From Verrucomicrobiia bacterium (GTDB lineage Bacteria; Verrucomicrobiota; Verrucomicrobiia; Verrucomicrobiales; DEV007), in the NCBI GenBank assembly GCA_030425385.1, contig JAUIAH010000009.1, positions 1 to 64,000 of the forward strand: a DNA stretch of 64,000 bases, read 5' to 3'. Below the pieces are notes generated by a model. It was not told where the DNA came from. It saw nothing but the letters and a program-made list of their open reading frames with translations, and made no database searches. Position numbers and translations under genes: made by a program. This document shows, piece after piece, positions 25,547 to 39,302 of this stretch. How positions within the stretch are numbered: the first letter of the stretch is position 1; each line of letters opens with the position of its first letter.

Positions 25547-26533
25547 ATGCGTCTCTCGATCCCCACGGCAGTCCTGACGCTCGTGTCGATCCCGTCCCTT
25601 TCGTGGGCGGCCGATCCATCGCAGCTCTATCTTGAAGAGAAAGACTACGAAGGCGCCTATGAGGCCTATGGCGAACGGCTTGAGAAGGCAGAGGTCTACC
25701 GTGATCGGTTAGAGTACGGCGCGGGCACAGCTGCTTACAAAGCGGGCTACTACGGGCAAGCGGCGGCCCATTTGGGCAGAGCCATCCTTTCGGACGACGA
25801 TGCCCTTCAGGGCAAGGCCTACTACAATCTGGGAAACACCCTCTTTCAGTTAGGCAAGGCAAGCGATGATCCAGAAGAGAAAGTGGATCAATGGGAAGCG
25901 GCGATCGATCACTATCGGGAAGCGGAGGCTCTGGCGGATCCTTCTACCGCGTCGAATGCATCTTACAATCGCGATGTCGTGCAGAAGTATCTCGATCAGT
26001 TGAAGCAGCAAGATCAGCAGCAGCAGAACCAAGATCAGCAGCAGAACCAAGATCAGCAGCAGAACCAAGATCAGCAGCAGAACCAAGATCAGCAGCAGAA
26101 CCAAGATCAGCAGCAGAACCAAGATCAGCAGCAGAACCAAGATCAGCAGCAGAACCAAGATCAGCAGCAGCAAGGCCAGCAGGGCGAGGAACAGCAGCAA
26201 CAACAACAGGAAGCCCAAGATCAGCAAAGCGAGTCACCGCAGGAAGCGTCACCCCAAGACCAAGGCAAGGGAGAGCAGCAGCCATCGGAATCGCAATCGA
26301 CTGAGGGAGATGGAGAGAAGAAAGAAGGGGAACTGCAACGGGCCGGGGAAGCGTCCGAGGGGGGAGAGGATGAGGGCGAGGAGAGTGAATTGAGTGCCTA
26401 CGAACTGACCCCAGACGGCAAGCTCAGCGAAGCGGCTGCGAGAGCCTTGTTAGAGAGCTTGGAGGCAGAAGAAGTGAAGGGACCCTTGCAGATGCAGAAA
26501 GGGCAGCGCCGGCGTGTTCTCCGCGACTGGTAA
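25547..26533 (+). CDS. BatC-like TPR protein with glutamine-rich repeat region
   Basis: A 328-residue exported protein with a signal peptide (1-21, cut after SWA). Residues 25-145 contain tetratricopeptide repeats (LYLEEKDYEGAYEAYGERLE; GKAYYNLGNTLFQLGKA; AIDHYREAEALADPS) as in BatC/BatE proteins of Bat (aerotolerance-type) operons. Residues about 155-205 are eight copies of QQQNQD, followed by a long Gln/Glu/Ser-rich acidic stretch. The C-terminal 45 residues are ordered again (LSEAAARALLESLEAEEVKG, then QRRRVLRDW), and this RDW-type end is common in BatC proteins. The MoxR and von Willebrand partners of Bat operons are absent from the window. Confidence 0.72.
   Translation: MRLSIPTAVLTLVSIPSLSWAADPSQLYLEEKDYEGAYEAYGERLEKAEVYRDRLEYGAGTAAYKAGYYGQAAAHLGRAILSDDDALQGKAYYNLGNTLFQLGKASDDPEEKVDQWEAAIDHYREAEALADPSTASNASYNRDVVQKYLDQLKQQDQQQQNQDQQQNQDQQQNQDQQQNQDQQQNQDQQQNQDQQQNQDQQQNQDQQQQGQQGEEQQQQQQEAQDQQSESPQEASPQDQGKGEQQPSESQSTEGDGEKKEGELQRAGEASEGGEDEGEESELSAYELTPDGKLSEAAARALLESLEAEEVKGPLQMQKGQRRRVLRDW
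26018..26161 (+). repeat. Eight tandem 18-bp units within the BatC-like gene
   Basis: Eight consecutive copies of CAGCAGCAGAACCAAGAT, apparently without base differences, encode QQQNQD. Being a multiple of three, copy-number change by slippage would alter linker length without breaking the frame. The repeat produces long Leu/Ile-rich and Ala/Ser-rich open frames on both strands, which are artefacts. It is not a CRISPR array, because there are no spacers. Confidence 0.95.
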
Positions 26534-28143: not shown

Positions 28144-31100
28144 TCAAGCGTCTTGTGACCGGTTGACGATCTTGGTGTTCCGATAGTCCTGCCCGTAGGC
28201 TCCGGTTGCGGGATCGCGGAGTTGGATCCTCATGTGGAGCCGGAACGTGTTCGATTTGGTGGTCAATCTCGGATACAGGTTACCGTAGGGTCGTTCTAGA
28301 CTGTTGTCCCCCGTGAGGCGGTGCGCGTCCCAGAAGGCGCGAACCGTCAGGCCGCCTTCGTCCCAGGAGACTCCTTTGGGAAGGAGGAAATGTTCGCAGA
28401 TTTCGGACTCTGTGAGGAAGACTTCGCCGCGGGCGAATTTCTCCTCAAACTGTTTCAAGGTCTCGTGGGCATCAATGGCGTGCCGATACGTAGGCCGCGT
28501 CTCCGTCTTGTAGACAGGGCCTGCCTCGGTGGGAATGGCGAGGAGGCGCTCTGACTTGAAGACGGCGTGAAGGGCGGTGCTGCGATGAATGTGAGGGAAT
28601 GGCATCATCTGATAGTTCAGGTTCACCTTGCCGCGGGTCACGCCATCGGCATGCAGGTGCTGAGGTTCAAGGGCTGGCATCCAGAAGAGATCTAGCCATA
28701 GGTGGTCGGGCGGCAGCGAGGCCTGCCCGGTGACCGACCCGAAACGTGGCAAACGAAAGCCGTCGACGGTCTCGCGATAGCCTAAGAAGGTGAGCCCATT
28801 GCCTGCTTCTCCTAAATGAGGATGAGTGTCAGGGTTGTGCGCCACATTGGGGCGAAAGAGGAGCGTCGTCCATGGGGCGTGGGCCTGCAAGGCACTGGGG
28901 AGCGATCCAAAGGCGACGGGAGAATTGATCATGCGCAATAGTGGTAGTTTCGCCTGTGTGAGAGAGTCCCTAACAAGGCCAGGCACATCGAAGTAGGGCA
29001 CGGCTCCTTCATCATCGATGGGGGCCCCTTCGTCGGGTTTGTTGATATAGGCCCCATCAGGAGCGTTGCCAAAGCCGTTGTCGAAATCACGCGTGATGGT
29101 TGGGTCGATGGGGAAGTGATAGTTCTCATCTAGAAGGGGAGCAAAGGCTTGGCGATCCGACACATTGCTAGGGAAATCGGGACGAACGTCTTCATGGTAG
29201 GTCACGCCCTCGACCAATCCGCGGCCATGGAGGTCCTCCGCGAAGGTCGCTCCAGGCGTCACTTGCCACGTCTTGGCCCCACTCTCCGTGAGGGCGTGCG
29301 CGGTGCGGGTCTCGGAATCTTGGGCAGCGTGGCGCGTGAAGAGTTCACTGGGCACGTGTCGTTTCATGGCCGCGTGCCGATAGTCACCGTGGCTCACGTG
29401 AAGACTCACAATGGTCTCGTGAAATTCAGGCTCTAGCACCGGAATAGGTCTCAGCCGTGCATTCACGGATGCCGCGTTGCGGAATCGCCGCGTCCAACCG
29501 GCAAAGCTCTGGTGGTTCCGCAACGGCTTGGCGAGCGGCACGGATTCGTGGGGCGCGGCCCACCGCAGGCGGAACTGCTGCACCGCGTTGTGAAGGTGCA
29601 CGTCTTCTCCCACAGCATCGTAGACCAGAAGTTCCATGGGGTTTTCCTGGGTAAGTGTGAGCGTTTCGTCGTCCCGGAGAATGACTGCGGTCTGGCAGTA
29701 GAAGTGCGAGAGGGGACCGAGGCCGTTGGGGAGGAAACGATTGTCATAGAATCCAGGCGCTTGCTCATCAAATCTAAAGGTGCCAAACCGCATCAAGCGT
29801 ATGCCTCCGCTACCTCCCCATGGATACCATCCCGCAGGCAAGTCTTCCCATGCCCGTCGGCTTAGCGGGTCTGATGACATGACGGCAGGGCCGTAGACGT
29901 CTTTGGGGATCCCGACGGCGTTTCCCCAGAGAGTGAGGGGAATACCATTCAGTTTCAGGTTGGCACCTTCATAGAGTAAGCGCATGGATTGCCGCGGAAT
30001 GATAGGATCATGCCCGTGACTTGGGCAGAAGACTTCGGGAATGAGCCCCACTTCAATGTAGGCGAAGCGGTGTCCGATATCGTCAGGCCCAAAGGTCTTG
30101 CCCAATTGCTGATAGAGTGGATGGCGATTGGAGAGGATCTGTTGAATGATGTCAGTGTCCGGGCCCACGCGTTGAGACACCACCGCTCGACCGTCTTTCC
30201 ATCCATCGAGTTGGAGTTCTCCAGTCTGATAGATCACGAGGGCGGCCTCAGACAATGTATAGATTCTCCCGGCGCCTTGTGGGTGCGATTGAGTATCGGA
30301 CCAGTTCTCCAGATGATTCTCTACTCCGTGGCCTTTGCTAGAGAAAGGAGTGATTTGCCCATAGCCACGGACGAAGTCACTAGCAAAGTCGCCACGATTT
30401 CCTTGATGAAGACCAATCTGCCGGACATAGTCGGCGATTGAGGTGAGGATCTGCAAATGATCGTGTTCGCGGGCGATCACCAAGTCTTGTAGAGCCTCAG
30501 GGCGGACGCCCAGCTTATCGGCCAAGGACCCGCCATAGCCTGGAATCCTCTTGTGGGTCTCGGTTCGAAGGGGCACGTCGCCATCGTAGGAAGAATGAGA
30601 GAGGACGCGTCGGAATCGGTGATAGCCTGCGACTTTACGGAAGCGCTCCTCTTGCTCGTGAGTGAGTAATCCGGGTGGGAGGATGGGCATTCTCGAGCCA
30701 CCGTGAACAGTGATCTCGGGGGATTCGCTATTGGCCGTTAGAAAGCCACGAAGATGATCGCTTCCCAGGTCGCCTGCTGCTTGGAGGTAGGCGTCCACGG
30801 AGGAGTAGGGAGACGTTTCATCCAAAGGTTGTTCATGGGTGAGCGCCTCTGGGGCTATACGATGGCGTGGATGCCAGACAATGCTAGGAGCCAACCCGTA
30901 GATGCGTTTCAGTTCGGCTTCTGTCAGGCGCTTGTCGGATTCGGCAGAATGATAGGAACGATTCGGAAAGAGCACGCTGCTCAGGCAGGTGGTTGCAGGA
31001 TGGCCGGGATGCCTTTGGTGTTCGGTGAGGCCCGGTTGATACGAGGCGTAGTCGCGATCCTCTTCCGTGTCCACCTTGGGTACATCCCATGGGATGCCTT

Positions 31101-32922
31101 CGGAGGCGGTGTTCACATTGATCTTACAACTTTCGTCATCCGCCCAGTAAGCGACCCGGGCGACAATAGGATTGGCATCCGTGGCTTCATCGGCCGTCCC
31201 GAGAGTCCCATCTTCCAAGGCGTAGAGCCATGGCACGGGCATGGGTAAATGGCCTTCTTCGCCAGAGATCGACTCGTTGTCGAAATGAAAGCCTTCCACC
31301 CTGTGCTCCGTTGCGGCGCGTGGATCCAAGATGGGGAAACGGCCCTCCACGGGTTCATTCAGATCCGTGTAGCGTTCGGGCGTGGCTTTCCAGTCCACGG
31401 CAGCAATGACCGAGGTCTCAAGTTCTTCCTGTGAAGTAAAGGCTTTGTGAGGAGAGGAGTAAAGCGGGTAGGCCTGAATGAAGTCGTGCTCTGCGCCAAA
31501 GGTCCGGATCATGCCGGGCTGAGAGATCCACGTGAAGACGGCATCGGTTTCCGATGGCCTCGTAGTGGCTTCCAGCAAGGTGCTTTCCACACGCTTGGTC
31601 ACGGCTGCCTCGATCTCGCGTAATCGCGGATTTGTGGGGGGCGCAGAAGGTAACTGGGCAGGCGTGAGGGTAGGGGAGATAAGGGCGCTGTGTTGGGATT
31701 GTGCGAGGGCGCGTTTGTCCGTGGCACCAATGAGCATCAGGGCGCCAATTGCCAACGCCATGAGCAGTGATTGCCAGGGGCCGCGCTTCGGCTGACGAGA
31801 ACAAAGGGCTCGCACGCGTCGAGAAACTTCGCTCACGCGGTGGGCCATGGTCAAATGATAGGTGGATACGAAGGGGGCTTGAGAGCGATGGTGTTCCACT
31901 ACCTTCAAGAGAGTGCGTCCGTACGCTTGGGCGTGTGATGGTGATAGGTGTCGCACGGCAAAAGCATCACTCGCCAATTCGCGATCGACAAACAGTTGAC
32001 GACGCATGAGCCAAACTAATGGATTGAACCAGTGGAGCCAGCACCCCAATTCCATTACCCAACCCACCAGGCTATCGCGACGTTTGAGATGCGCGAGTTC
32101 GTGATAAGCAATGTGCTTCCAATCGCGCTCAGTTAGCTCGGGGAGCAGAGGCTCTGGCATGAGAAGCGTGGGGCGGCCGATGGTGGACAGGGCGGGCGCC
32201 GAGACCGTCGACGAACTCCTGAGGGCGACGGGCTTCAGCCCAAGATGTTGGCACGCCTGCTGGACGATCAAACCGCCCTCTTCGTGCTCCAGTTCTGGTA
32301 GCCCTTGAATGACGCGATGCTGGCGATAGGCCCGGCAGAGGACGCGTCCGATGCCTAATGCGAACCCAAGTGTCCAGATGCCGGGCAAGAGAAATCGTGG
32401 CCACTTCGGCCCGAGATCGTCTTCTGGCAATGAGGCAACTGCGCCTATCGGAGGTGACGGCGTTTCCGTTATTGGCGTTGCTTGATTGATTGCAGCCTGA
32501 TCGCCAGAATGTGGGTTTGTGAGCCTTTCGTCAGCGTTATTGATAGATCTCGCAATTGTTGGTGTTTCTCCTTCCGAAGCAGTTTGTTGGGTGGTATCTC
32601 TAGCGGGAATACCTGATGGGCTTTTCGTTGTCTCAAGCGCATGATGCCAGTCAGGGCTAGGAAATGCCGGGGCCAGAGCGTCGGGCGTCTTGCCTAAGCG
32701 GTGCTGGAGATTGAAGAAGCTCACAGAAGATTCTGGGACCGTTGGAAGAAAGAGGCGAACCATCGGAATTAGCCACAGCCAAGCGAGCCATTCCCTGGAG
32801 ATGTGTTTCCTTAACAGGATGTGTAAGAGGAATGTCAGGGCAATCAAGATCGTGACCTGCCACGTATGTTCCCAGATCCAAGCGTGAAATGTGTTTGCGA
32901 ATGGCGTGATCATCTCCTTCAT
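28144..32922 (-). CDS. BlaR1-type M56 peptidase fused to a Verru_Chthon cassette protein A-like region
   Basis: A 1,592-residue single ORF. Residues 1-400 are a BlaR1/MecR1-type M56 membrane metallopeptidase. Hydrophobic segments lie near 20-37, 43-60, 170-190 and 385-403; the zinc motif is HIAYHELAHLKRRD (about 269-282) and the third-ligand region is DRELASDAFAVRHL. In BlaR1 the last helix leads to an extracellular penicillin-binding sensor. Here it leads to about 1,180 residues that match my knowledge of Verru_Chthon cassette protein A: ISQPGMIRTFG, VARVAYWADDESCKINVNTA, HPGHPATTCLSSVLFP, GKVNLNYQMMPFPHIHRST, then TGDNSLERPYGNLYPRL. It overlaps blaI by 4 bp, so it probably inactivates BlaI by proteolysis on an unknown cue. 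No cassette B, C or D genes are nearby. Confidence 0.85.
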   Translation of the reverse strand: MKEMITPFANTFHAWIWEHTWQVTILIALTFLLHILLRKHISREWLAWLWLIPMVRLFLPTVPESSVSFFNLQHRLGKTPDALAPAFPSPDWHHALETTKSPSGIPARDTTQQTASEGETPTIARSINNADERLTNPHSGDQAAINQATPITETPSPPIGAVASLPEDDLGPKWPRFLLPGIWTLGFALGIGRVLCRAYRQHRVIQGLPELEHEEGGLIVQQACQHLGLKPVALRSSSTVSAPALSTIGRPTLLMPEPLLPELTERDWKHIAYHELAHLKRRDSLVGWVMELGCWLHWFNPLVWLMRRQLFVDRELASDAFAVRHLSPSHAQAYGRTLLKVVEHHRSQAPFVSTYHLTMAHRVSEVSRRVRALCSRQPKRGPWQSLLMALAIGALMLIGATDKRALAQSQHSALISPTLTPAQLPSAPPTNPRLREIEAAVTKRVESTLLEATTRPSETDAVFTWISQPGMIRTFGAEHDFIQAYPLYSSPHKAFTSQEELETSVIAAVDWKATPERYTDLNEPVEGRFPILDPRAATEHRVEGFHFDNESISGEEGHLPMPVPWLYALEDGTLGTADEATDANPIVARVAYWADDESCKINVNTASEGIPWDVPKVDTEEDRDYASYQPGLTEHQRHPGHPATTCLSSVLFPNRSYHSAESDKRLTEAELKRIYGLAPSIVWHPRHRIAPEALTHEQPLDETSPYSSVDAYLQAAGDLGSDHLRGFLTANSESPEITVHGGSRMPILPPGLLTHEQEERFRKVAGYHRFRRVLSHSSYDGDVPLRTETHKRIPGYGGSLADKLGVRPEALQDLVIAREHDHLQILTSIADYVRQIGLHQGNRGDFASDFVRGYGQITPFSSKGHGVENHLENWSDTQSHPQGAGRIYTLSEAALVIYQTGELQLDGWKDGRAVVSQRVGPDTDIIQQILSNRHPLYQQLGKTFGPDDIGHRFAYIEVGLIPEVFCPSHGHDPIIPRQSMRLLYEGANLKLNGIPLTLWGNAVGIPKDVYGPAVMSSDPLSRRAWEDLPAGWYPWGGSGGIRLMRFGTFRFDEQAPGFYDNRFLPNGLGPLSHFYCQTAVILRDDETLTLTQENPMELLVYDAVGEDVHLHNAVQQFRLRWAAPHESVPLAKPLRNHQSFAGWTRRFRNAASVNARLRPIPVLEPEFHETIVSLHVSHGDYRHAAMKRHVPSELFTRHAAQDSETRTAHALTESGAKTWQVTPGATFAEDLHGRGLVEGVTYHEDVRPDFPSNVSDRQAFAPLLDENYHFPIDPTITRDFDNGFGNAPDGAYINKPDEGAPIDDEGAVPYFDVPGLVRDSLTQAKLPLLRMINSPVAFGSLPSALQAHAPWTTLLFRPNVAHNPDTHPHLGEAGNGLTFLGYRETVDGFRLPRFGSVTGQASLPPDHLWLDLFWMPALEPQHLHADGVTRGKVNLNYQMMPFPHIHRSTALHAVFKSERLLAIPTEAGPVYKTETRPTYRHAIDAHETLKQFEEKFARGEVFLTESEICEHFLLPKGVSWDEGGLTVRAFWDAHRLTGDNSLERPYGNLYPRLTTKSNTFRLHMRIQLRDPATGAYGQDYRNTKIVNRSQDA

Positions 32923-33317
32923 CCTTGTTTGTCTTCTAACATTGCTTTGAGTTGGCGGATTTCCTCTTCGGAGAGGGATTCATTCTCAATGAAGTGCATG
33001 AGCATCGGCCCTGACGCTCCGCGAAACACTCGGCGTGCGAAGTCGGAAACCGCTTCACGAATGCAGTCCTCGCGAGCGATGGCGGCACGGTAGACGTTGC
33101 TGCGCCCTTCCCGTTTCACCTTGAGAGCCCCTTTCTCCACTAGCCGAGCGAGAAAGGTATTCACCGTCTTCTGAGCCCATTGGCGTTCCCGGGGCAAGCG
33201 CTCACAAATGGCACTTGCTTTCATGGGGCCTCCGCCTTCCCACAGGATGTTCATCACTTCCCATTCCGCATCAGAAATGCGTGGTCCTGCTTGGGTGATT
33301 CGCTTCTTTGCTTTCAT
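32919..33317 (-). CDS. blaI: BlaI/MecI/CopY family transcriptional repressor
   Basis: A 132-residue winged-helix repressor. The DNA-binding domain covers about 10-80: RISDAEWEVMNILWEGGG, ASAICERLPRERQWAQKTVN and TFLARLVEKGALKVKREGRS. The C-terminal dimerisation helices include FIENESLSEEEIRQLKAML. In known systems the BlaR1-type peptidase triggers cleavage of BlaI and release of the operon. The stop codon overlaps the start of the M56 fusion gene (ATGA), so both proteins are made together. Two TACA-N2-TGTA boxes overlap its own promoter, which supports autorepression. Confidence 0.92.
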   Translation of the reverse strand: MKAKKRITQAGPRISDAEWEVMNILWEGGGPMKASAICERLPRERQWAQKTVNTFLARLVEKGALKVKREGRSNVYRAAIAREDCIREAVSDFARRVFRGASGPMLMHFIENESLSEEEIRQLKAMLEDKQG

Positions 33318-33321
33318 TGAT

Positions 33322-33370
33322 TACAGTTGTAGTCCGTCGACAAGTTAGGACTACACTTGTAGGAGATCAA
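33322..33370 (-). promoter_or_regulatory. blaI promoter with two BlaI operator boxes
   Basis: Reading on the minus strand, TTGATC (33365-33370) and TAACTT (33342-33347) are separated by 17 bp and form a sigma-70-like promoter. Box 1, TACAGTTGTA (33322-33331), lies between the -10 element and the start codon. Box 2, TACACTTGTA (33352-33361), lies inside the spacer. Both match the TACA-N2-TGTA core recognised by BlaI/MecI repressors. Their centres are 30 bp apart, about three helical turns, and together they form a larger near-perfect dyad (GTAGTCC...GGACTAC). Confidence 0.75.
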
Positions 33371-36131: not shown

Positions 36132-39053
36132 TCAGGGCGTGCTCTCAGCAAAGCGGACAAAGATGCGGTCCTCCCCTGAGACTGGGAGACGCGCTTCCAC
36201 GGTTTGCATGCCATTGACGGCTTCGCTTTCGTCGAACTGGAAATCCATGGAATCCCACCCGGTCATGTTTCTGGAGTATTCCAGATCAACCCAATTCAAA
36301 GGAGCTTCAGCGGTCTTGGTGAAGGTCACCACATATTCGTCATCGTCCATGGTTCCGGTGAGATCAGATTCGTCGAATTGTGAGGGATCGAGGAGTAGAT
36401 AGAACTCAAATTCATTCGCCCAGCCATCTTGATCGGGATCGGCATGTGGTCCCCAAACCGTGTCTTCCTTGGTAGGATCGGCGAGGTCGCCAGTATCAAA
36501 GACGGTCGCTGCCCAGGCAGCATAGAGATCGCCCTCGGTGTCTCCCGTGACCGTGACGGTGATGGTTTCACTGCCAGAACGCGGTTGCGCGGCATCATCG
36601 GTGGCCACGAGGTCAAAGGTATACGTGCCAGGACCCTGGGGCGCCGTGGGCGTCCAGGTGAATACTCCTGTGTCGGCGTCAATGCTTGCGCCATCGGGAG
36701 CGCCATTGAGACTGTAACTCACATCATCACCATCCGGGTCTTCGGCCGTGACGGTGAATGTGAGGGTCTCAAGTTCCTCCACAGATTGATCTCCAATGGC
36801 TGGCGCAATCTTCGGAGGCAAGTTGCCCACCATAAAGCCTGCGATGGCTTGAGCGACTTTCTCATGCCCCTCGTTGGTGGGATGAATGCCATCGGATCGG
36901 ATGTCGTTCAGAGTGAGTGCGGGGTCGAGAAAGGCGAATCGGTTTCCTTTCTCACTAACTAATTCCTCAATATCATCGTTGAAATCGGGGACGGTGGTTG
37001 AAAGTTCCCCTTTGGCATTCTGAAACTGATCTTGGGGAAACGTTCCTTCGGGATCCACAGGTGGCAGAGCGACACAGATCACCTTGGTGGAGGGAGGGAA
37101 TTGAGCCGCTATGGCATCCATCAACGCTCCGTAGCGATCTTTGATCGCGTCCACAGGACGATCGACTTCGTTGCCTCCTCCGTCTCTATCCGTGTAGGTG
37201 CCCGCTGCAGTGAAATCATCCGTGATGTCTGGCTCAAAGGTGTCGAGTGTATCGCTCGGGCTGATCAATTGCATCAAGTCATTGAAGCCCACCTTCAGAA
37301 CCACAAAGTCAGGCGTCTGCGTGATCTGCCCGGCCGGGTCAAAGAGGGATTCGAAGGCATTCAGGAGCCCGGGATTGGGAAACACGCTACCCACGGCGGA
37401 CTGTCCCACTTCGGGGTTGCGGCTAATGTAGTAGCCAGGGCCACCCACCATTTCATCACCTGAGTCACTGAATGTATCGGGATCGGGATCGCCTTCATAG
37501 ATGGGGGCGATGGGAAGAAGCGTGTCGAGGAAGGTGTGGTAACTCACGCCATCGTTGGGAAAACCAGAGGTCATGGTGTCTCCCATGGTCATGATGACGA
37601 GGGGGAGGTCATCGGTTTCATTCACCGTGATGGTGATGGTGATGGTGTCAGACTCAACTCCGTCGGAGACGATGAGGTCAACGGTATAGTCGGTGCCTCC
37701 TTGGTCCTCGCTTGGCGTCCAGGTGAAGACGCCCTCTTCCGTGATGCTGGCACCTTCTGGCTCGTCTTGTAAGCTGAATGTCAGGGTTTGCGCGGGCTCA
37801 TCAGCGTCGCTTGCTTGGGCGGAGAAATCTCGGGTCTCCTGGAGCAACTCGTCGATGGCAAATGGGGCGATAGTGTCCCACTCGGGCGCCACGTTCACTT
37901 CGTTGACTGTTAGGGTGATCTTGGCGCTGGTGGCGAGAGTCTCCGCGCTGTCATCTTCTAGCACAATGTCGAACGTGTAGGTGCCCGGGCCTTGGGCTTC
38001 GCTGGGCGTCCAGCTAAACTCTCCGCCGCCAGTGATGGCAGCACCGGCCGGGGCATTGGCAAGACTAAAGGTGATCTCGTCGCTATCCGGGTCGCTGCCC
38101 GTTGCCGTGAATGTGTGTTCCGTGCCTTCATCAATGGTGGCATCATCGATTGAGTTGCTGTCGATCTCGGGAGGCGAGCCAGCATTGATGTAAGGGGCAA
38201 GCGCATTGCCGATCTTCTCATACCCTCCCGGAGTGGGATGCAAGCCGTCGGTGAGATCGTCGACGAGAAGACCGTGATCGATGAAATGAAAGCGGTCGCC
38301 TTTGGTGGCGATGAGGTCCTCGATCTCCTCATTGAAGTCGGGGATGACGGTGGCGAGCGTGGCTTTGGCCAACTCAAACTGCGCGTCTCCAGATGCCTCG
38401 GTATCGACGGGGGGCAGGGGCATGCAGATAATCTCCGCTCCGGGGAAGGCGGCGTTCAGCATGTCTAACACTTCATTGTATCGGTCGATCAGTTTGCTCG
38501 ACGGATAGGTGAAGACGTCCATCCCCGCGGTCACTTCAAAGGTCCCAGTGGTGAGGAAATCATCCATCGTATCTGGAATGTAGGTCACCGTGGTGCCAGC
38601 GGCACCGGCGGGCTCAATCATTTGAATGAGGTCGTTCGTCCCTCCCATGAAGATGATGAATTGGGGCGCCGGTGTCACCGTGTCCTTGATATCCTCAAAG
38701 CGCTCTAACATGCCGTTGGAGCGAAAGACGGAGGGCTGGGATGGCCCGCTTATGAGCGGTCGCTGGCTGATAAAATTGCCATCGCCGCCGACCATGGGTG
38801 CGGGGGCACCGGCGGGACCATCAGCAGGATCGTCGAGAGGATTGCCCACGAAGACCAGGGTGTCCGTCACTTCAGTATCGAGGGTGGAGTGATAGCTGAT
38901 GCCGTCTCCATGGGGAAAGCCCCGGGTAACGGAATCTCCGATCGTCATGAGCACCGTATCTGCAGGCGCCGAGGACCAAGCCGTCCAGAAGAGGAGCGCT
39001 GCGAAGGAGCATCGCAAGCAGCGGGGAAAGCCGAAGGAGAGATGATTAATCAT
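36132..39053 (-). CDS. Large secreted protein with two SGNH hydrolase modules and Ig-like repeats
   Basis: 973 residues from the ATG at 39053, with a signal peptide of about 30 residues ending in APA. Module order is SGNH 1, two cadherin/He_PIG-like repeats, SGNH 2, one repeat, and a C-terminal region with DPDQDGWANEFEFYLLLDPS. SGNH 1 has GDSVT, GTND and DGLHP, the full set. SGNH 2 has GDTMT (Ser to Thr at the nucleophile) but keeps GFND and DGIHP. It is clearly a paralogue of the three-module protein at 1066-6687, including the same C-terminal domain. It is likely exported and acts on acyl or acetyl esters of polysaccharides, though this is inferred. It is divergent from the metzincin gene. 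Confidence 0.85.
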   Translation of the reverse strand: MINHLSFGFPRCLRCSFAALLFWTAWSSAPADTVLMTIGDSVTRGFPHGDGISYHSTLDTEVTDTLVFVGNPLDDPADGPAGAPAPMVGGDGNFISQRPLISGPSQPSVFRSNGMLERFEDIKDTVTPAPQFIIFMGGTNDLIQMIEPAGAAGTTVTYIPDTMDDFLTTGTFEVTAGMDVFTYPSSKLIDRYNEVLDMLNAAFPGAEIICMPLPPVDTEASGDAQFELAKATLATVIPDFNEEIEDLIATKGDRFHFIDHGLLVDDLTDGLHPTPGGYEKIGNALAPYINAGSPPEIDSNSIDDATIDEGTEHTFTATGSDPDSDEITFSLANAPAGAAITGGGEFSWTPSEAQGPGTYTFDIVLEDDSAETLATSAKITLTVNEVNVAPEWDTIAPFAIDELLQETRDFSAQASDADEPAQTLTFSLQDEPEGASITEEGVFTWTPSEDQGGTDYTVDLIVSDGVESDTITITITVNETDDLPLVIMTMGDTMTSGFPNDGVSYHTFLDTLLPIAPIYEGDPDPDTFSDSGDEMVGGPGYYISRNPEVGQSAVGSVFPNPGLLNAFESLFDPAGQITQTPDFVVLKVGFNDLMQLISPSDTLDTFEPDITDDFTAAGTYTDRDGGGNEVDRPVDAIKDRYGALMDAIAAQFPPSTKVICVALPPVDPEGTFPQDQFQNAKGELSTTVPDFNDDIEELVSEKGNRFAFLDPALTLNDIRSDGIHPTNEGHEKVAQAIAGFMVGNLPPKIAPAIGDQSVEELETLTFTVTAEDPDGDDVSYSLNGAPDGASIDADTGVFTWTPTAPQGPGTYTFDLVATDDAAQPRSGSETITVTVTGDTEGDLYAAWAATVFDTGDLADPTKEDTVWGPHADPDQDGWANEFEFYLLLDPSQFDESDLTGTMDDDEYVVTFTKTAEAPLNWVDLEYSRNMTGWDSMDFQFDESEAVNGMQTVEARLPVSGEDRIFVRFAESTP

Positions 39054-39302
39054 AATCTTTATTGATTCACAAATTGTCATAATTGGGGCGGCTCGCAACT
39101 ACGATTGTCATCGAAGGCGAATCGGTCGCAGAGGTGAGAGCAAACCGTCCACAGCGTTCTCACCGCACCAATTTCCTCTCCTAGCAGATTCTCGACGGTG
39201 ATAGCCGATGTGCCACTCAAATTTCATGGAGGCGGCATCCAGCCAAGGAATGATGATGGTTATAGAAATGAGGGCACGGGCAATCCTGAGAAGCTCAAAT
39301 GC

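Follow-up and report, generated by a model that had tools for sequence, protein, structure and literature searches.

A BlaI/M56 regulatory pair in a Verrucomicrobiales genome, with a peptidase that carries a Verru_Chthon cassette protein A-like outer region

Switches composed of a BlaI-type repressor and an M56 peptidase are best known from beta-lactam resistance. In the BlaR1/BlaI and MecR1/MecI systems of staphylococci and bacilli, an M56 gluzincin peptidase that bears HExxH and ExxxD motifs is encoded adjacent to a BlaI-type repressor, the operators have the form TACAnnTGTA, and a penicillin-binding (class D beta-lactamase-like) sensor lies outside the membrane as a C-terminal domain behind the last transmembrane helix. 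BlaI is cleaved between Asn101 and Phe102, the P1' Phe being described as almost invariant, and the sensor of BlaR1 is cleaved off by SpsB in S. aureus (PMC9834060). One locus in a genome of 8.0 Mb has the same peptidase motifs, an adjacent repressor in which the cleaved Phe aligns, operators of the same form and a presumably outer C-terminal domain, but no penicillin-binding sensor; instead, its outer domain of about 1,150 amino acids belongs to another family, Verru_Chthon cassette protein A (VCA, TIGR02600). The features of this locus (Table 1) lie within the window, which is the whole stretch of 64,000 nucleotides that was analysed (positions 1-64000 of a contig of 198.7 kb).

Table 1. Coordinates in the window of the features at the M56-VCA locus, with the basis of each assignment
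Feature	Residues	Position	Strand	Basis
M56-VCA fusion gene, 1,592 aa		28144-32922	-	ORF
Verru_Chthon cassette protein A-like outer region	about 445-1592	28147-31590	-	TIGR02600 528 bits; AlphaFold2 (AF2)
GspK-like motif VARVAYWADDESCKINVNTAS	587-607	31102-31164	-	family-conserved; weak local hhalign match to GspK
ALA-Q, putative signal-peptidase-like site right after the last transmembrane helix	405-408	31699-31710	-	sequence
Last transmembrane helix, bridging peptidase and outer domain	383-401	31720-31776	-	hydropathy
M56 (BlaR1-type) membrane metallopeptidase domain	20-371	31810-32865	-	PF05569 E=3.8e-38; BlaR1 8exs/8exp E=3e-10
ELASD (ExxxD), third zinc ligand motif	315-319	31966-31980	-	corresponds to BlaR1 E242xxxD
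HELAH, zinc-binding motif	274-278	32089-32103	-	aligns with BlaR1 HExxH (H201EXXH, S. aureus)
blaI, winged-helix BlaI/MecI-type repressor, 132 aa		32919-33317	-	PF03965 E=1.3e-34
BlaI box 1 (predicted), TACAGTTGTA, 4 bp upstream of the blaI start codon		33322-33331	.	perfect TACAnnTGTA dyad
BlaI box 2 (predicted), TACACTTGTA, 30 bp from box 1		33352-33361	.	perfect TACAnnTGTA dyad
Divergent DASS/CitMHS-type anion symporter, 488 aa		33457-34923	+	PF03600 E=5.4e-50, PF00939 E=2.1e-43

The fusion protein is encoded by a single frame of 1,592 codons that no stop interrupts, as the initial annotation had described. Its N-terminal part matches PF05569 with 131.8 bits against a cut-off of 31, and its C-terminal part matches TIGR02600 with 528.4 bits (E=4.6e-158; curated cut-off 332.3). 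The latter match falls into two stretches, which comprise about 1,120 aligned residues and reach residue 1567. The VCA-like region had been put at about 1,180 residues; the resemblance is borne out by the profile match, but the extent is nearer 1,150 residues, beginning at approximately residue 440. Hydropathy defines three clear segments (centres 28-32, 186 and 392) and a further segment near residues 43-60 that is below the threshold. Tyr334 occupies the position of Tyr261 of BlaR1 in the alignment. No transpeptidase or beta-lactamase domain was found in the fusion protein by Pfam, and the curated BlaR1 model NF000326 scores 103.8 of the 400 bits required.

The alignment of the repressor with MecI (1okr, E=3.3e-19) covers almost the full length, with LMH-F109 standing against the cleaved LN-F of MecI, so that the P1' Phe is in register and P1 is His (His108) rather than Asn. 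Because the HELAH and ELASD motifs match those of BlaR1 and His108-Phe109 is located at the BlaI cleavage site, the peptidase and its BlaI substrate look competent. The two genes share 4 bp (ATGA, 32919-32922), and the two boxes that had been noticed in the promoter were both found to be perfect dyads: the window contains two TACAnnTGTA sequences where 0.07 are expected, the twin arrangement (spacing of 10-40 bp) occurs once in the 8.0 Mb genome, and the reversed control gives no match. The genome has three copies of the 12-bp form YTACAnnTGTAG, two of which are the boxes upstream of blaI. The third (C58:19939-19950) is flanked by a CYTH-CHAD gene and by a gene whose product of 237 amino acids is membrane-anchored, and is possibly a further BlaI target, but a single site may be due to chance. 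No sigma-70-like promoter was found near the boxes.

The genes that flank the locus encode HTH, YkuD and DASS proteins. The DASS gene starts approximately 95 bp beyond box 2, and from this position the symporter may be a target of the same boxes. No close orthologue of the symporter was found in relatives of the genus (best 34%), and for this reason no synteny or empty site can be defined there. No gene for cassette protein B, C or D and no pilin gene was found near the window, so the four-gene cassette in which the family is usually found does not surround the fusion. Two other frames of the window were noticed: that at 25547-26533 contains a long QDQQQNQ repeat, which is open in several frames and on both strands, and that at 36132-39098 encodes a protein of 988 amino acids in which Ig-like repeats accompany two stretches of GDSL lipase.

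In an alignment with 14 relatives, the VCA region of the fusion keeps the conserved positions of its family. It retains 87 of the 94 near-invariant columns, the seven changes being more than are seen in most homologues, and it ends 30-60 residues short of other family members. The prepilin-like N-terminus with which the initial annotation expected this family to begin is also absent, its place being taken by the fourth transmembrane helix (TM4) of M56 and a linker. The outer region is predicted by AlphaFold2 from 62 homologues to be one compact unit (pLDDT 86, pTM 0.90), a model in which the VCA fold appears intact; residues 425-870 modelled alone fold poorly (pLDDT 65). Neither a Foldseek search of the PDB with the outer-region model (E<=0.001) nor a profile search of PDB sequences with VCA gave a match, and no mention of Verru_Chthon was found in the papers searched.

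A complete Verru_Chthon cassette is present elsewhere in the genome (C35, L068:3047-9900), with A on the opposite strand and divergent from B-C-D. The scores of its A, B, C and D proteins are 832, 99.9, 318.6 and 139.7 bits, and their second-best curated matches are GspK, GspI, GspJ and GspH, respectively, which suggests that the cassette is a verrucomicrobial set of minor (tip) pseudopilins with A in the place of GspK, an assignment that for the body of A we infer. Canonical VCAs share the prepilin N-terminus of GspK, the minor pseudopilin of type II secretion (hhalign probability 95%), and the body contains a short DDExxKxNxN motif in common with GspK, but the motif match is weak, the VCA body is 3-4 times larger, and no PDB fold match accompanies it. 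Single pairwise hhalign tests of the VCA body against GspK gave E values of about 0.0007-0.009 with a probability of 5-27%, and because of these probabilities homology of the body is at most suggested. The GspK model NF037980 does not match the protein of the window, and matches the prepilin-type VCA paralogues at their N-terminus only, with 22-24 of 130 bits. It can be proposed tentatively that a domain derived from a giant, GspK-like protein of a pilus or secretion tip was recruited as the outer sensor of an M56 peptidase that cleaves BlaI, in which a pseudopilin-derived fold would read an extracellular or periplasmic ligand (a secreted protein, a pilin partner or a polymer) and control transcription via proteolysis of a repressor.

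In a maximum-likelihood tree, the VCA half of the fusion is sister (100/99) to a group of stand-alone VCAs with Sec signals from the same genus, the two together nest within the prepilin-type VCAs, and the terminal branch of the fusion is long (0.86). The prepilin anchor was probably lost before, or together with, capture by M56. The stand-alone VCAs (L067:3853-7998, L072:8933-13135, L076, L078) resemble the fusion in having neither a prepilin N-terminus nor pilin neighbours, but differ from it in that a signal peptide and a small N-terminal domain replace the prepilin helix instead of M56, and no BlaI accompanies those of L067 and L072. Another VCA, of 2,074 amino acids (L099:5458-11682), has a long, repeat-rich, autotransporter-like N-terminal region.

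The fusion is very probably genuine and, so far, a one-off. A survey of Verrucomicrobiota for the same fusion beside blaI, which the initial annotation had envisaged, yielded no second case, either among 57 relatives searched with the whole protein or in samples of 388 genomes of the phylum and 387 of the order searched with the M56 half. M56 was absent from 112 other VCA ORFs of at least 700 amino acids (some of them repeats of one record), VCA was absent from 46 loci taken from M56 matches (including 20 picked for long frames), and no relative of the fusion was found in viral contigs. These surveys are samples, in which a fusion that arose independently on a strongly divergent M56 domain might escape notice. 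By comparison, exchange of C-terminal modules on M56 is common in the order. The genome has 14 M56 matches, several of which adjoin a BlaI gene, and their C-termini vary (PBP dimer plus transpeptidase, CarboxypepD_reg, HEAT, OEP-like); in other genomes of the order they include PBP plus MreC, PSCyt2, arrays of CarboxypepD_reg, and thioredoxin. Other Verrucomicrobiales proteins such as L083 (PBP), L285 (PBP plus MreC) and L071 (CarboxypepD_reg plus thioredoxin) likewise combine the M56 platform with C-terminal modules that vary, and several lie beside blaI, but none of those examined carries VCA. Since these C-termini differ across the genome and the order, the VCA module is new whereas the platform that carries it is known, and since nearby M56 proteins bear so many unrelated modules, the swapping of outer domains is a general principle in the order and not peculiar to the fusion. 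The outer module need not be a sensor; the PSCyt2-type modules do not look like sensors.

The gene fusion, the catalytic motifs, the apparently cognate repressor with a scissile Phe, the unique twin operator and the outer fold predicted to be intact, all read from sequence, may be combined in a BlaR1-type switch of regulated proteolysis that has the VCA domain as its input and controls the operon that encodes it and, probably, the divergent DASS gene; we give this reading about an even chance. BlaI dimers on the twin boxes would keep expression of the blaI-M56-VCA operon, and probably also of the DASS transporter, low. The VCA domain would bind a ligand or partner outside the inner membrane, upon which the last transmembrane helix would move and the cytoplasmic zinc peptidase would become active, cutting BlaI before Phe109 and opening the promoter. 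Cleavage by signal peptidase at ALA-Q may then release the outer domain and return the system to its resting state, which is plausible because this site follows TM4 and SpsB of S. aureus removes the sensor of BlaR1. The switch is supported by matches of M56 and VCA far above chance, by the presence of HELAH and ELASD and the alignment of Tyr334 with Tyr261, by the similarity of BlaI to MecI from end to end with a P1' Phe, by the 4-bp overlap and the unique twin boxes, by the predicted VCA fold with its conserved columns, and by the slot after M56, which holds PBP modules in the same order, as in BlaR1. It is weakened by the chance that the outer module is cargo or an enzyme, as the PSCyt2-like modules of other M56 proteins indicate, and by the finding of the fusion in a single genome, the long branch, the changed columns and the lack of a sigma-70-like promoter near the boxes.

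The main rival is that VCA is cargo and not a sensor, i.e., that BlaI/M56 regulates a surface or periplasmic VCA that is translated with the peptidase and released at ALA-Q by signal peptidase, like the Sec-exported VCAs of the same genus. Sisterhood with those VCAs, the A-x-A-Q-like sites that follow the last transmembrane helix in several other M56 proteins as well as in the fusion, the cleavage of the BlaR1 sensor by SpsB (PMC9834060), and the non-sensor-like modules of other M56 proteins are all in its favour, but a BlaI partner with its own operator best fits a peptidase whose activity is modulated, and VCA need not stay attached to M56 in order to be released, so we consider cargo unlikely. 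It is improbable that the fusion is a gene accident, perhaps non-functional, in which an orphan VCA that had lost both its N-terminus and the tail at its C-terminus became joined to an M56 protein that signals independently of it: the occurrence in one genome among those sampled, the long end branch, the missing tail and the seven changed columns would be expected of such an accident, but 1,592 codons have remained open, the predicted fold is intact with pLDDT 86, the catalytic motifs, repressor and operator are all retained along with 87 of 94 near-invariant columns, and 49% identity of the VCA half to the nearest relative sampled is not that of a fresh duplicate.

The initial annotation had proposed that the cassette-A-like domain is the input of a proteolytic switch and that the cue might be a pilus, secretion or envelope state. 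What stands is the arrangement, a BlaI/M56 pair with its operator and with VCA in the slot of the BlaR1 penicillin sensor, and VCA may be the input; for a cue from a pilus or from secretion, which is possible, there is no specific support, because the VCA half groups with the Sec-exported, stand-alone VCAs rather than with those of cassettes, and B-C-D neighbours are lacking. Such sensing, by a VCA domain that has kept the ability to dock with minor pseudopilins or secreted substrates, is therefore quite improbable; the complete cassette at C35, with its Gsp-like second-best matches, means that potential docking partners exist in the cell, but the prepilin helix is absent from the fusion and the VCA body resembles GspK only weakly. 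Chimeric assembly of separate M56 and VCA genes, which could account for a fusion from a single genome with no orthologue found, was rejected as very unlikely, because the intact, in-frame join is interior to a 198.7 kb contig, GC3 is alike along the gene on either side of it (0.59-0.69), and no separate, near-identical copy of either half was found in the genome or the sampled relatives, the VCA half being only 49% identical to the nearest of them.

If the switch operates as proposed, the VCA fusion would offer a readout for the Verru_Chthon A family, which has no assigned function, as cleavage of the repressor could be measured while candidate ligands are offered. Because 14 M56 matches with different outer modules occur in one genome, the M56 class may be a general platform for proteolytic signalling across the membrane in Verrucomicrobiota. 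Among its other members, a protein of the same genome (L083:3016-5751, C40) joins M56 to a complete class-B-like PBP (PBP_dimer plus transpeptidase) and adjoins a blaI-like gene; an M56-transpeptidase-MreC fusion of 1,476 amino acids (L285:3124-7554) combines a BlaR1-like module with a cell-shape protein; and giant M56 proteins of 3,100-3,500 amino acids are encoded in Verrucomicrobiales at L273:590-11071, L276:1846-11211 and L279:1-10321.
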